In this document: positions 31-8,174 of the stretch, in pieces
Layout: each line of letters begins with the position of its first letter
How positions within the stretch are numbered: the first letter of the stretch is position 1
Source of the DNA: Geoglobus sp.
GTDB lineage: Archaea > Halobacteriota > Archaeoglobi > Archaeoglobales > Archaeoglobaceae
Direction: 5' to 3'
Assembly (NCBI GenBank): GCA_027016965.1
Contig: JALURI010000227.1
Span: 1-8,174, forward strand
Length of the DNA stretch: 8,174 nt
Notes under the pieces: generated by a model
Told to the model about the DNA's origin: nothing
Databases searched by the model: none
Seen by the model: only the letters and a program-made list of their open reading frames with translations
Translations under genes and position numbers: made by a program

Positions 31-1029
31 TTAATATCCTGGGTATATAAATATTTTTCGACCTTCAATTTTAACAGACTCACCTGAAAATGCATTAATG
101 ACATATGCGTTACTTTTTGTGTGATCTGTAACTGAAGTTGCTGTGTAGTTTGTTTTTCCACTTGCCATAAAGGCAAAGGTCATTATCTGATCTGCAAGAT
201 GTCTGTCGAAAATACCATCAGAGCTCAACTCTGCAGTAATATCCATTCCAGCCTCCCTACCTACCTTTTCTGCAGGCTTCCCTCTTTCCCCAAGTGCCAC
301 AGATCCTTTGTAACCGCAAAAGAGTGTTATTCCAGATCCTGTGGATTTGCCCTTCTGAACCTCTGTTTCTATCTCACATCTCATCCCTGTGCTTTCAAGG
401 AACTTGCTTGCTGATAATGCCTGTTTTTCAGCTACATGCCCTGGAAGATTTGAGCAGTGGCTTATACCTCTAACTTTTCTGCACTCTGTTTTTTGAAACT
501 CCCTCCCATTCAGCTTGGATCCTTTCACCTTCACCACAACCTTGCCACCGCCCTTGGGGTAGTAGCCCCTCCTTATAACTTCAATTCGGATGTCTGTACC
601 CATTTCCTTCAGGGCTTTAAGGGTTACAAATCTGAAATAATCAATGCTTGGACTCCAGCTGACATCTGTCCCTCCTGTTATTTCAAGTCTGCAATCCCTT
701 TCACCATAAACAATAGGTGGCAGAATTGTCTGGAGCAGTAAGGTTATGCTTCCGGCAGTGCCTATATCTATTCTCATATCCCTTATTTTCAGTTCCCTAG
801 GTCTGAAAATCACCCTTGTCGACCCCATTTTCAGCCCCTCAACCTGTGCACTGCAGAGCACCTTTGCAACCTCAATACCCCTGAGATGCTGAGCCTTAAG
901 TCCCGGCTTTGGTCTGTTTGCTCTTATGTTGTATATCTCCACATCTTCACCTGTGATGCATGAGAGAGCAACTGCTGTTCTGAGGATCTGTCCTCCTCCC
1001 TCTCCAAAGCTTCCGTCTATTTTGATCAT
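31..1029 (-). CDS. rtcA: RNA 3'-terminal phosphate cyclase (RtcA)
   Basis: 332 aa, close to the usual family length of about 340. RtcA converts an RNA 3'-phosphate to a 2',3'-cyclic phosphate using ATP, through an enzyme-AMP intermediate on a histidine, and acts in RNA repair and end processing in the cytoplasm. Visible family marks are GEGGGQILR at residues 9-17, the RTC signature R-G-x2-P-x-GGG at 154-162, and the C-terminal DHTKSNAYV at 302-310, whose His303 matches the adenylated histidine of E. coli RtcA. The ATG at 1029 overlaps the TGA of the upstream acetyl-CoA-synthase-like gene (ATGA), and a GGGGTGATG ribosome site lies in the end of that gene, so translation is probably coupled. 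No RtcB ligase or RtcR-type regulator is nearby. The identification is firm; the cause of the pairing with its partner is unknown. Confidence 0.95.
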   Translation of the reverse strand: MIKIDGSFGEGGGQILRTAVALSCITGEDVEIYNIRANRPKPGLKAQHLRGIEVAKVLCSAQVEGLKMGSTRVIFRPRELKIRDMRIDIGTAGSITLLLQTILPPIVYGERDCRLEITGGTDVSWSPSIDYFRFVTLKALKEMGTDIRIEVIRRGYYPKGGGKVVVKVKGSKLNGREFQKTECRKVRGISHCSNLPGHVAEKQALSASKFLESTGMRCEIETEVQKGKSTGSGITLFCGYKGSVALGERGKPAEKVGREAGMDITAELSSDGIFDRHLADQIMTFAFMASGKTNYTATSVTDHTKSNAYVINAFSGESVKIEGRKIFIYPGY

Positions 1030-2138
1030 TTCATCACCCCTTCTCCACCTTGAACCATCATTCTCTCCAGAATTTCTTTCGGAAGAAATCTGCTGACGAA
1101 CTCATATATTTTTGGGCTCACCCAAGTCACTTTCTTCCATCCACCCTCTCCTTTGAGAAAGCTTTCTGATTTCAGATATCTGAGGCTTATTCCGGTAAAT
1201 CCCTCAACCTGTAATCCAGCTATGAACCTTTCGATATTACTGAATCTGAGTCCGAGAGGTGTTTTTCCTTTAAAACTCCTGTCAACTATTCCAAAACCGT
1301 TATCATCAGGTATGTAGAAGAGGATGGCCTCTGCGAAGTTCCCTGTTAGGGGAGGGTTTTCAAGAACTGAGTGAATCTTTATTCTTTCCACCTTCGATTC
1401 AGTTTTCTTTTTAATTTCCCTGCTTATATTCTCATACTCTCCCGCCATGGCATCAATCTCTTTACCCTTATGAACCGGGGAATAGTATTCTACAATCTCC
1501 AGTTCACTGGCAGATTTTGCTTCAGAGTATAACGTTCCACATGGAGATGGTCTTTCAGGAGTTATCACGCATGCATGGTATGGCAGGTAGACCTTGCAGG
1601 ACTCGCAAAGGTAAAATTCCCGAACATTCTCATCCCTGAGGGATTTGCTCTTACTTTCTCTCTGTTCATGTACTTTTGCAGCCCTCTTTTTCACAGCCTC
1701 AAATTCAGCACCGTCACACACGATCCTTACCTTTACTTTTTTTATCGCTTTGATGGATTTCACCGCTCTGAATATAACCTCTCCAACACATTCTGGAGTA
1801 AATCTCTGGAAAGAACTACTTGAGACGATCATCATCACATTTTCTTTCCTGAATCTGTACTCAACACCCCTCATCCTGCTTATAACCTCTGAGAGGAGAC
1901 TTTCCAAAGCCTGGGCAGATTCGTCGCCTATCCCTTCAACAGTTACATGAAACCCCATCCTGTCTCTGAAGTCTCCAACAATCTCAACCCCCTCTCTGTT
2001 AACTCTCCCTGCTTCAACAAACTCAAATCCGTAAATCAGCTTTCCATCTTCCACAATTTCTCCGGAAAAAGCAGGGTCAATTTCAATGCAATCTGATACA
2101 GGATTGATTTTGTATGGGTCTATGAATCGATTGATCAT
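1026..2138 (-). CDS. Acetyl-CoA synthase beta subunit (CdhC/AcsB)-like paralog lacking the Cys-Gly-Cys nickel motif
   Basis: 370 aa, shorter than archaeal CdhC (about 470). CdhC/AcsB makes acetyl-CoA from CO, a methyl group and CoA at the A cluster, a [4Fe-4S] cube bridged to two nickels. Residues 1-170 resemble the middle domain of ACS. C178-x2-C181-x8-C190-x9-C200 reproduces the spacing of AcsB Cys506/509/518/528, within YLCESC and ITPERPSPCG. FYIPDDNGFGIVDRSFKG (274-291) and GGWKKVTW (332-339) align with the ACS blocks FYIPEVDGIGWVDR and GGW/Y-x-R-VVW. Where ACS has HTSCGCFE, this protein has PLTGNFAE: the Cys-Gly-Cys becomes Gly266-Asn267-Phe268, so the distal nickel site is gone. The frame is intact over the whole length, so it is not a decayed gene. 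It probably starts at ATG 2138, about 26 nt from a TATA-like box (leaderless). It is unlikely to be a working ACS; a pseudoenzyme, scaffold or sensor role is inference. Confidence 0.85.
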   Translation of the reverse strand: MINRFIDPYKINPVSDCIEIDPAFSGEIVEDGKLIYGFEFVEAGRVNREGVEIVGDFRDRMGFHVTVEGIGDESAQALESLLSEVISRMRGVEYRFRKENVMMIVSSSSFQRFTPECVGEVIFRAVKSIKAIKKVKVRIVCDGAEFEAVKKRAAKVHEQRESKSKSLRDENVREFYLCESCKVYLPYHACVITPERPSPCGTLYSEAKSASELEIVEYYSPVHKGKEIDAMAGEYENISREIKKKTESKVERIKIHSVLENPPLTGNFAEAILFYIPDDNGFGIVDRSFKGKTPLGLRFSNIERFIAGLQVEGFTGISLRYLKSESFLKGEGGWKKVTWVSPKIYEFVSRFLPKEILERMMVQGGEGVMK

Positions 2139-2156
2139 ATCCTTAATTAACCTCGT

Positions 2157-2170
2157 GATGATAAATAGAT
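2157..2170. promoter_or_regulatory. Shared AT box between divergent genes (candidate bidirectional promoter)
   Basis: GATGATAAATAGAT reads as TATTTAT on the minus strand and ATAAATA on the plus strand. Its centre, near 2164, is 26 nt from the minus-strand ATG at 2138, which fits a leaderless transcript. In the other direction a start near 2190 would leave a leader of about 18 nt carrying the plus-strand ribosome site at 2196-2203. One core element serving both directions is inferred from spacing only; two overlapping promoters are equally possible. Confidence 0.45.
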
Positions 2171-2195
2171 CACCGGACTTTTGGAAATCAATGTA

Positions 2196-2203
2196 AGAGG
2201 TGA
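2196..2203 (+). promoter_or_regulatory. Ribosome binding site deciding the start of the LOG-like gene
   Basis: AGAGGTGA lies 4 nt before the ATG at 2208. It is inside the longer reading frame that could begin at TTG 2181, so it argues for ATG 2208 as the true start. Confidence 0.7.
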
Positions 2204-2207
2204 GACC

Positions 2208-2654
2208 ATGCAGGTTGGTATTATAGGGGGTGGAAGGTGTTATGAGGACATCTGCGAGTTAGCATTCAGAATAGGTCAGCTTCTTGCAGAAAAAGAGTGT
2301 GTGGTGATAAATGGAGGTCTTGGTGGTGTTATGGAAGCGGTCAGTAAGGGTGCGAAGGATAAATGTGGTACTGTCATAGGGATAGTTCCGGGTAAAGACA
2401 GAACAATGGCAAATAGATACTGTGATTATGTAATTGCAACAGACATGGGACATGCAAGAAACATGATAATAGTCCATTCAAGTGATGTGCTTATTGCAGT
2501 TGGTGGAAGTTACGGAACGGTCTCTGAAATGGCAATAGCTCTGAAAGAAGGTAAGAGGGTTGTTGCTTGCAAACCACCTGTTTTGCTTGATGGAATCATT
2601 ATTGCTGAGAGTCCGGAAGAAGCTGTTGAAAAAGCTCTGGAGGGATTTGGATGA
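2208..2654 (+). CDS. LOG/DprA-like Rossmann nucleotide-binding protein (TIGR00725-type)
   Basis: 148 aa from ATG 2208, one Rossmann domain. Marks are a glycine-rich first loop (MQVGIIGGGR, 1-10), NGGLGGVMEAVSKGA at 35-49, and GGSYGTVSE at 99-107, the counterpart of the PGGxGTxxE motif of LOG and lysine-decarboxylase-like proteins. LOG relatives bind nucleotides and some hydrolyse cytokinin-type nucleoside monophosphates; members of this short prokaryotic group have no settled role and are sometimes compared with the molybdenum cofactor carrier protein. The frame is open back to a TTG at 2181, but the ATG with AGAGGTGA just before it and the typical family N-terminus favour 2208. The last codons overlap the next gene by ATGA, so the two are probably translated together. 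The family call is good; the substrate is unknown. Confidence 0.85.
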   Translation: MQVGIIGGGRCYEDICELAFRIGQLLAEKECVVINGGLGGVMEAVSKGAKDKCGTVIGIVPGKDRTMANRYCDYVIATDMGHARNMIIVHSSDVLIAVGGSYGTVSEMAIALKEGKRVVACKPPVLLDGIIIAESPEEAVEKALEGFG

Positions 2655-3049
2655 AAGTTCTTGAATTTGAGATGGACAGAGATGAGATACTGAATATTAC
2701 AGATGAGGTTCAGAGGTTTGTTGAGGAAAGTGGTAAAGATGAGGGAACAGTTCTGATCTTTTCAACAGGATCAACAGGTGCGATTACAACAATTGAATAC
2801 GAACCGGGTCTTGTAAAGGATCTTCCAAGAGTAATGGAAAAAATTGCCCCCTATTCAGAGCATTATGAACATCACAGAACTTGGAATGATGATAATGGTT
2901 CATCGCACGTCAAGTCAGCAATAGTGGGTGTAAGCATCCTTGTTCCCTTTTCAAACAGAAGATTGATGCTTGGTACATGGCAGCAGATAGTTCTGATTAA
3001 TTTTGACACACGAAGAAGAAATAGGAAGGTTATTTTACACGTGCTTTAG
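2651..3049 (+). CDS. YjbQ/UPF0047 family protein (possible secondary thiamine-phosphate synthase)
   Basis: 132 aa, normal length for UPF0047. Some members, such as E. coli YjbQ, show weak thiamine-phosphate synthase activity, but the cellular role of the family is not established. Visible family blocks are STGSTGAITTIEYEPG (38-53), the histidine-rich HYEHHRTWNDDNG (71-83) followed by SSHVKSAIVG (84-93), and LMLGTWQQIVLINFD (105-119), which matches the near-universal GtWQ-x-hhh-x-DfD ending. In place of the HTS/HTT seen in E. coli-type members it has a GSTGA sequence, which I recall as usual in an archaeal and bacterial subgroup. The start overlaps the TGA of the LOG-like gene (ATGA), indicating a two-gene operon. 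The family call is strong, the function tentative. Confidence 0.88.
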   Translation: MKVLEFEMDRDEILNITDEVQRFVEESGKDEGTVLIFSTGSTGAITTIEYEPGLVKDLPRVMEKIAPYSEHYEHHRTWNDDNGSSHVKSAIVGVSILVPFSNRRLMLGTWQQIVLINFDTRRRNRKVILHVL

Positions 3050-4360: not shown

Positions 4361-4537
4361 TCAATCCATTTTTATCAAGGCACCGTAAGGACATGCCTCA
4401 ACACACTTGTAACATTCCATGCATTTTTCGGGATCTATTCTGACGACCTTCCCACCCTCTCTTACTATCGCATCTGTTGGGCAGGCCTGAGAGCATTTTC
4501 CGCAGCCCTGACATCCGAGTATGGCAGGAGGCATCAT
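4361..4537 (-). CDS. Small 2[4Fe-4S] ferredoxin
   Basis: 58 aa, a typical bacterial-type dicluster ferredoxin reduced to the core fold. The two cluster motifs are C9-x2-C12-x2-C15-x3-C19-P and C39-x2-C42-x2-C45-x3-C49-P; as usual in this fold, the fourth cysteine of each motif should bind the other cluster. It is a soluble low-potential electron carrier. The start at ATG 4537 overlaps the TGA of the regulator gene upstream (ATGA); a second ATG follows directly, so the protein may begin one residue later. It is the last gene of the redoxin / radical SAM operon and is the natural candidate to deliver the electron that the radical SAM protein needs to cleave SAM. That partnership is inferred from gene order. 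The downstream neighbour is convergent. Confidence 0.93.
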   Translation of the reverse strand: MMPPAILGCQGCGKCSQACPTDAIVREGGKVVRIDPEKCMECYKCVEACPYGALIKMD

Positions 4538-8117: not shown

Positions 8118-8144
8118 TTGCCCTCCCATGTTCTGTTAGATAAA

Positions 8145-8174
8145 GCGGTCGTAGTCTAGGGGCAGGACACGGGC
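8145..8174 (+). tRNA. tRNA gene, 5' part only, probably tRNA-Gly
   Basis: The first 30 nt of a tRNA are present before the window ends. They read as acceptor strand GCGGTCG, T8 and A9, D stem GTCT with GGAC closing a loop AGGGGCA, A26, then CACGGGC whose CGGGC is the 5' anticodon stem strand. The anticodon is beyond the end. The GCGG acceptor and CGGGC stem are like archaeal tRNA-Gly as I recall it; identity needs the missing part. Confidence 0.85.

Follow-up and report, generated by a model that had tools for sequence, protein, structure and literature searches.

In acetyl-CoA synthase (ACS), the cubane of the A-cluster is held by the four motif cysteines other than those of the nickel-binding Cys-Gly-Cys (CGC). 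The closest described relatives of the protein considered here are the archaeal ACDS beta subunit CdhC (PDB 9c0s, 9c0t) and bacterial AcsB (PDB 1oao, 1ru3 and others). In the available part of a report on Methanosarcina thermophila CdhC, the proximal nickel is described as having the thiols of Cys278 and Cys280 for ligands and the distal nickel as coordinated through the main-chain nitrogen of Gly279, and Phe195 is assigned to the CO alcove, located where CODH and ACS meet (PMC11474084). A genome paper on G. ahangari counted an additional ACS beta copy, with missing ligands going unmentioned in the portion accessible to us, and our literature search, which reached few subscription journals, recognised no paper on a nickel-less ACS paralog.

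The window analysed here, a whole stretch of 8,174 nucleotides from Geoglobus sp., carries an open reading frame at 1026..2138 on the minus strand that begins with ATG and runs uninterrupted to its stop codon, encoding a 370-aa protein of the ACS/CdhC fold without the CGC; we use the name PAR for this product and for its family. Pfam places PF19436 (ACS_CODH_B_C) on residues 158-360 with 156 bits, and the NCBIfam cdhC model TIGR00316 gives 205.7 bits, under its cut-off of 355.95. Homology with CdhC spans residues 17-361, and phmmer searches against solved structures aligned residues 60-361 with M. thermophila CdhC (9c0s_E, E 4.5e-44) and residues 99-348 with bacterial ACS (1ru3, E 1.2e-37). 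The AF2 model has a pLDDT of 91.9 and its top rows in Foldseek and VIA-align were all ACS (Foldseek TMq 0.83 for CdhC); PF19436 for homology, and Foldseek and VIA-align for the predicted fold, all identify the C-terminal (A-cluster) domain of ACS beta. PAR also shares with CdhC the four motif cysteines and a motif histidine, but differs from it in having no CGC, no alcove Phe and no C-terminal tail, in carrying C-x-S-C and SPC signatures, and in falling in a separate clade. Compared with AcsB, with which its sequence scores are lower than with CdhC, PAR is without the A1 domain and the nickel-site cysteines.

The cysteines of PAR lie at residues 17, 117, 141, 178, 181, 190 and 200, with none beyond 200. 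C178, C181, C190 and C200 (C-x2-C-x8-C-x9-C; codons within 1539..1607, minus strand, a span that includes the PAR-specific Ser180 and Ser198-Pro199) form the presumed [4Fe-4S] site, and phmmer matches them to the four motif cysteines of both M. thermophila CdhC and bacterial ACS. Gly266-Asn267-Phe268 (1335..1343, minus strand) stand in place of the nickel-binding CGC, with which they align gap-free in the phmmer alignments to both proteins, and Tyr184 (1587..1589, minus strand) takes the place of the CO-alcove Phe (Phe512 in Moorella, Phe195 in Methanosarcina). The preliminary description of this DNA had reported four cysteines with A-cluster spacing and Gly-Asn-Phe at the CGC position; these residues were read correctly, and phmmer agrees.

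A database search returned 46 proteins, 39 of which form the PAR group (P0001-P0039, 338-378 aa, the first being the window's own); the remaining seven (P0040-P0046) are CdhC with the CGC. In all 39 full-length PAR rows the four cysteines are present, as are the motif His (His188), the Ser before the second cysteine and the Ser-Pro before the fourth, and no row has a CGC. The alcove Phe is likewise absent from all 39, its position being occupied by Tyr (32), Asn (4), Ser (2) or Thr (1), and every canonical row whose motif could be read (42 of 42) has it; the other 62 of the 104 collected proteins with a CGC are outside this Phe count, the full four-cysteine motif not having been found in their rows. 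Two outcomes that the preliminary description had named as fatal to its claim did not occur: the four cysteines are not randomly lost among relatives, and a frameshift or sequencing error masking a CGC is ruled out by the lack of one in all 39. Going by homology, the four conserved cysteines very probably hold a [4Fe-4S] cluster. Because the CGC and the alcove Phe are lost and the genomes carry a separate cdhC, PAR almost certainly does not synthesise acetyl-CoA.

The same site has been considered as a new heterometal centre, with a different metal beside the cubane or zinc replacing it. The equivalent of the bridging cysteine, C181, is present with His188 in 39 of 39 rows, and C17 and C117, both invariant among the full-length family, could serve as ligands if they reach the site. 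Against such a centre, no Cys occurs within the 16 residues preceding the FYxP block in any of the 39 full-length rows, none follows the fourth motif cysteine in 35 of them, and short forms of the protein are entirely without the C17/C117 region. We therefore judge a second or substituted metal to be improbable.

Those short forms emerged when genomes of the heat-loving order Archaeoglobales were compared. A family-profile match was found in 50 of 57 genomes and full-length PAR in 16 (477-631 bits), all 16 with a further match of CdhC type; for the 11 genomes examined first, the cdhC match was above cut-off every time, with the CGC read in 10 and the eleventh cut by a contig end. Five further genomes (G025, G026, G040, G041 and G043) carry a form of about 170-180 aa comprising the A-cluster domain alone, in which the four cysteines are kept, the CGC is absent, and the N-terminal domain, with the region of C17 and C117, has been lost. 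The short-form database search had 192 passing matches; among the 120 listed, 17 were short rows, 15 with the full motif and two whose records lack its first two cysteines; none of the 17 had a CGC. One short row, P0057, is labelled as a Hadarchaeota MAG, and three fragments (P0064-P0066, 105-133 aa) with no full motif and no CGC are outside these counts. When the 17 short rows were used to search 392 genomes of the phylum, 21 matches scored at least 194.6 bits and corresponded exactly to the 16 full-length and five short-form genomes; below them was a gap down to 150.7 bits, where all nine loci that were read have the CGC.

A tree of 92 A-cluster-domain rows (42 full-length PAR, 15 short forms and 35 CdhC, the latter including two without a CGC, P0068 and P0117) placed all full-length and short PAR rows on one side of a 100/99 branch and the CdhC rows on the other. 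On the PAR side, the short forms branch from among the full-length proteins, and thus the N-terminal domain was probably lost later, the cysteines staying. For the four scorable PAR pairs, dN/dS was 0.14, 0.09, 0.18 and 0.06, showing purifying selection in these pairs; the other six of the ten were saturated. Conserved cysteines, no CGC, a single clade and low dN/dS together argue that selection keeps the cubane site without nickel chemistry. The earlier assertion that the gene cannot be a normal acetyl-CoA synthase, yet is intact, is supported (CGC and alcove Phe each in 0 of 39 rows, a further match of CdhC type in all 16 genomes with the full-length protein, dN/dS 0.06-0.18), and the lone decayed copy with no conserved lineage that it had set as its own counter-case is ruled out by the 100/99 clade of 42 full-length and 15 short rows and by dN/dS not exceeding 0.18 in any of the four scorable pairs.

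Loss of the CGC and the alcove Phe could also be taken as the decay of a functionless cdhC duplicate, and the PAR gene of G. ahangari is probably GAH_00919, the one that the accessible portion of the genome paper lists as an additional beta copy, judging from its place in the gene numbering. With the four cysteines kept in 39 of 39 rows, dN/dS no higher than 0.18 in scorable pairs and one old clade, this account is very hard to credit. A recent duplication of the organism's own cdhC is disfavoured as well (uniting PAR and Archaeoglobales CdhC in one clade gives AU p 0.012, with long branches in play), and the family therefore looks old from its sequences, with a long stem and an insecure exact place.

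The short-form search row P0068 led to 25 Methanimicrococcus-type CdhC rows (P0068, P0167-P0190), among them P0168 from Methanimicrococcus stummii and P0170 from M. blatticola. The four cysteines are present in 24 of the 25, the remaining row being 206 aa long without the full motif, while the CGC is found in none of the 25 and the alcove Phe in none of the 24. These proteins are like PAR in having four cysteines, no CGC and no alcove Phe, but unlike it in that their full-length rows run to about 410-422 aa, have C-x-I-C for C-x-S-C and form their own clade. They group with PAR against the canonical rows at 94/95, with both stems about 0.9 long as a warning of a long-branch join, and constraining them with Methanosarcina CdhC gave an AU p of 0.0475. 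Two reports, as far as the available text goes, describe the loss of CdhA and CdhB in the hosts and the retention of CdhCDE in M. blatticola, for which an anabolic role is predicted and CO detoxification suggested (PMC11362671, PMC9723798). A CdhC without nickel ligands should not carry out acetyl-CoA chemistry. Among other CdhC-like sequences, two metagenomic rows (P0117, P0139) have Cys-Ser-Cys replacing Cys-Gly-Cys and an altered motif region, and CdhC-like matches lie within long open frames of about 1375-1407 aa in G058, G067, G076 and G093 (L110, L112, L111 and L109).

PAR might likewise be an accessory or regulator of CODH/ACS, that is, a nickel-free ACS docking on either CODH or the corrinoid protein CdhDE to act as an assembly chaperone, corrinoid redox activator or CO sensor. 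Such a role fits with the ACS fold kept by PAR, with the CdhC-type match in all 16 genomes with the full-length protein, and with Methanimicrococcus, whose CdhC is without CGC and which is reported to have kept CdhCDE and lost CdhAB. Yet no cdh gene was recognised beside PAR among the annotated neighbours at the loci inspected, the five single-contig genomes have at least 160 kb between PAR and the canonical match, most genomes of the order that carry CdhC are without PAR, and the alcove Phe, described in the available text as lying at the CODH/ACS contact (PMC11474084), is not kept. We consider a function in CODH/ACS a serious candidate, though a doubtful one.

The neighbourhood of the gene points elsewhere. 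In the window, a gene for an RtcA-like RNA 3'-terminal phosphate cyclase (31..1029, minus strand; TIGR03399 398 bits, above cut-off) lies downstream of PAR, its start codon and the PAR stop sharing a 4-bp overlap (1026-1029). On the other side, a divergent intergenic region of 69 bp (2139..2207) separates PAR from the gene for a SLOG cluster-4/TIGR00725 protein (2208..2654, plus strand; PF18306 147.5 bits, TIGR00725 151.6 bits, above cut-off), which overlaps by 4 bp with a YjbQ/UPF0047 family gene (2651..3049, plus strand; PF01894). Of the earlier statement that PAR is expressed as the first gene of an operon, the sequence bears out no more than the overlap with rtcA and the gap to the divergent gene, and such an operon is putative. 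The SLOG neighbour, and not PAR itself, is a relative of the Moco carrier protein (E 3.3e-17 to PDB 2iz5) and, by weaker matches, of LOG-type cytokinin phosphoribohydrolases, which leaves Moco binding by SLOG putative; a bacterial Moco carrier is reported, in the part of the source available, to bind Moco (PMC7470044). Farther along the window, a 58-aa two-cluster ferredoxin-like frame (4361-4537, minus strand), absent from the 60-aa ORF list, has same-strand genes for TrmB-like HTH, radical SAM, thioredoxin and glutaredoxin-like proteins near it. At 8140-8174 (plus strand) the DNA resembles by eye the 5' portion of a tRNA gene truncated where the window stops, for which ARAGORN gave no prediction.

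Comparison of 22 PAR loci showed that the SLOG/TIGR00725 gene adjoins PAR divergently in 13 (two of the nine loci without it start at or near the PAR start, at a contig end), with YjbQ beyond SLOG in nine. RtcA is found downstream of PAR in seven loci, four directly and three 1-4 kb away, and MoaD followed by MoeA lies directly downstream in six. The MoaD-MoeA adjacency occurs only in Archaeoglobus-type loci; the window and the other Geoglobus-type loci have rtcA downstream. The MoaD-like genes that were scanned pass two models, archaeal MoaD and the protein modifier SAMP1, each above its cut-off. Their MoeA-like counterparts have MoeA_N above the Pfam cut-off but score below the NCBIfam equivalog cut-offs. 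Counting a pair as matches within 300 bp on the same contig and strand, we found MoaD-MoeA in 15 of the 16 genomes with full-length PAR versus 4 of the 41 without it (G032, G034, G056 and G057), with a Fisher p of 2.6e-9 that has to be read in light of the non-independence of kin and the incompleteness of MAGs. Some 14-18 kb separate the pair from PAR in G002, G009, G029, G030 and G031, and none of the five short-form genomes has it.

Several individual loci stood out upon inspection. At L067 (9070-11614, genome G020), genes for DUF134, an ApbC/Mrp-type Fe-S carrier ATPase, PAR, a MoaD-like and a MoeA-like protein follow on one strand, the ATPase frame upstream of PAR with a 4-bp overlap. One open frame of 477-559 aa spans the MoaD-like and MoeA-like matches in G028 (C1:1689966-1691354), G004 (C302), G034 (C172), G056 (C1:35627-37051) and G057 (C221), which suggests a MoaD-MoeA fusion protein. 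Of the five short-form loci, four (L068, L069, L070 and L072) have a fused OMP-decarboxylase/HUMPS-RraA gene convergent with, and adjoining, the short PAR. Two CdhC-length matches occur in G032 (C24 and C68; L074 and L075), a genome with no PAR and with the MoaD-MoeA pair, the CGC being read only in the C24 copy, and in G051 (C12:96791-102100), also without PAR, a CdhC match lies about 4 kb from a SLOG/TIGR00725 gene.

On genome context by itself, the handling of a Mo/W-pterin cofactor would be the best-supported single function. The preliminary description had offered a scaffold, maturation factor, sensor or transferase; from this list the context favours the maturation role, directed at the Mo/W-pterin cofactor and not at nickel or CO, with the adjoining SLOG gene, the MoaD-MoeA pair and the Fe-S carrier ATPase gene of L067 counting in its favour. 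Several observations temper this, among them the confinement of MoaD-MoeA adjacency to Archaeoglobus-type loci, the absence of the pair from the short-form genomes, the SAMP1 score of the MoaD-like protein and the low equivalog scores of the MoeA-like rows. SLOG is above cut-off in 46 of the 57 genomes, with or without PAR, and its adjacency to PAR may therefore be an inherited position. In addition, the accessible text of one report has the Methanimicrococcus host losing moaABC/moeA (PMC9723798), and its CdhC without CGC therefore means that such an ACS fold need not have a Moco role. PAR could also be a structural or generic electron-transfer protein tied to neither pathway, its neighbours keeping inherited positions: besides the order-wide SLOG, the neighbours vary by lineage (rtcA, MoaD-MoeA, the HPS-RraA fusion) and a single-domain form suffices in five genomes. 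The tracking of full-length PAR by the MoaD-MoeA pair (15 of 16 versus 4 of 41) speaks against this, and we hold such a protein to be rather unlikely.

Our preferred reading, to which we assign a probability of about 0.38, is that PAR is a nickel-free, all-cysteine [4Fe-4S] protein of the ACS fold, acting as a redox or sulfur/cluster accessory in the assembly or delivery of the Mo/W-pterin cofactor and not in acetyl-CoA chemistry, the cluster being predicted by homology and the cofactor role by context. PAR is a family conserved among archaea that shares the predicted fold of CdhC, the beta subunit of ACS, and from which the dinuclear nickel site is absent; its A-cluster domain would hold a plain all-cysteine [4Fe-4S] cluster. 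It would neither make nor cleave acetyl-CoA, which the canonical CdhC elsewhere in the genome would do, and may work with the Moco-carrier-like SLOG protein and the MoaD-MoeA pair on the Mo/W-pterin cofactor, for example by supplying electrons or sulfur when the metal is inserted. More speculatively, an ACS fold that shed its nickel site would have been turned to metal insertion into the Mo/W-pterin, serving with its [4Fe-4S] cluster as a redox or sulfur donor alongside MoaD-MoeA and SLOG; we know of no such [4Fe-4S] donor component in the described Moco pathway.

Annotators should take note that counts of ACS beta copies are including PAR-type genes. The A-cluster is among the most conserved and ancient metal sites of carbon metabolism, and PAR, trimmed to the A-cluster domain in some species, would be a natural nickel-free ACS for measuring the cubane's own properties. 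If the link drawn from gene context is true, the family would add an Fe-S component to archaeal Mo/W cofactor assembly.
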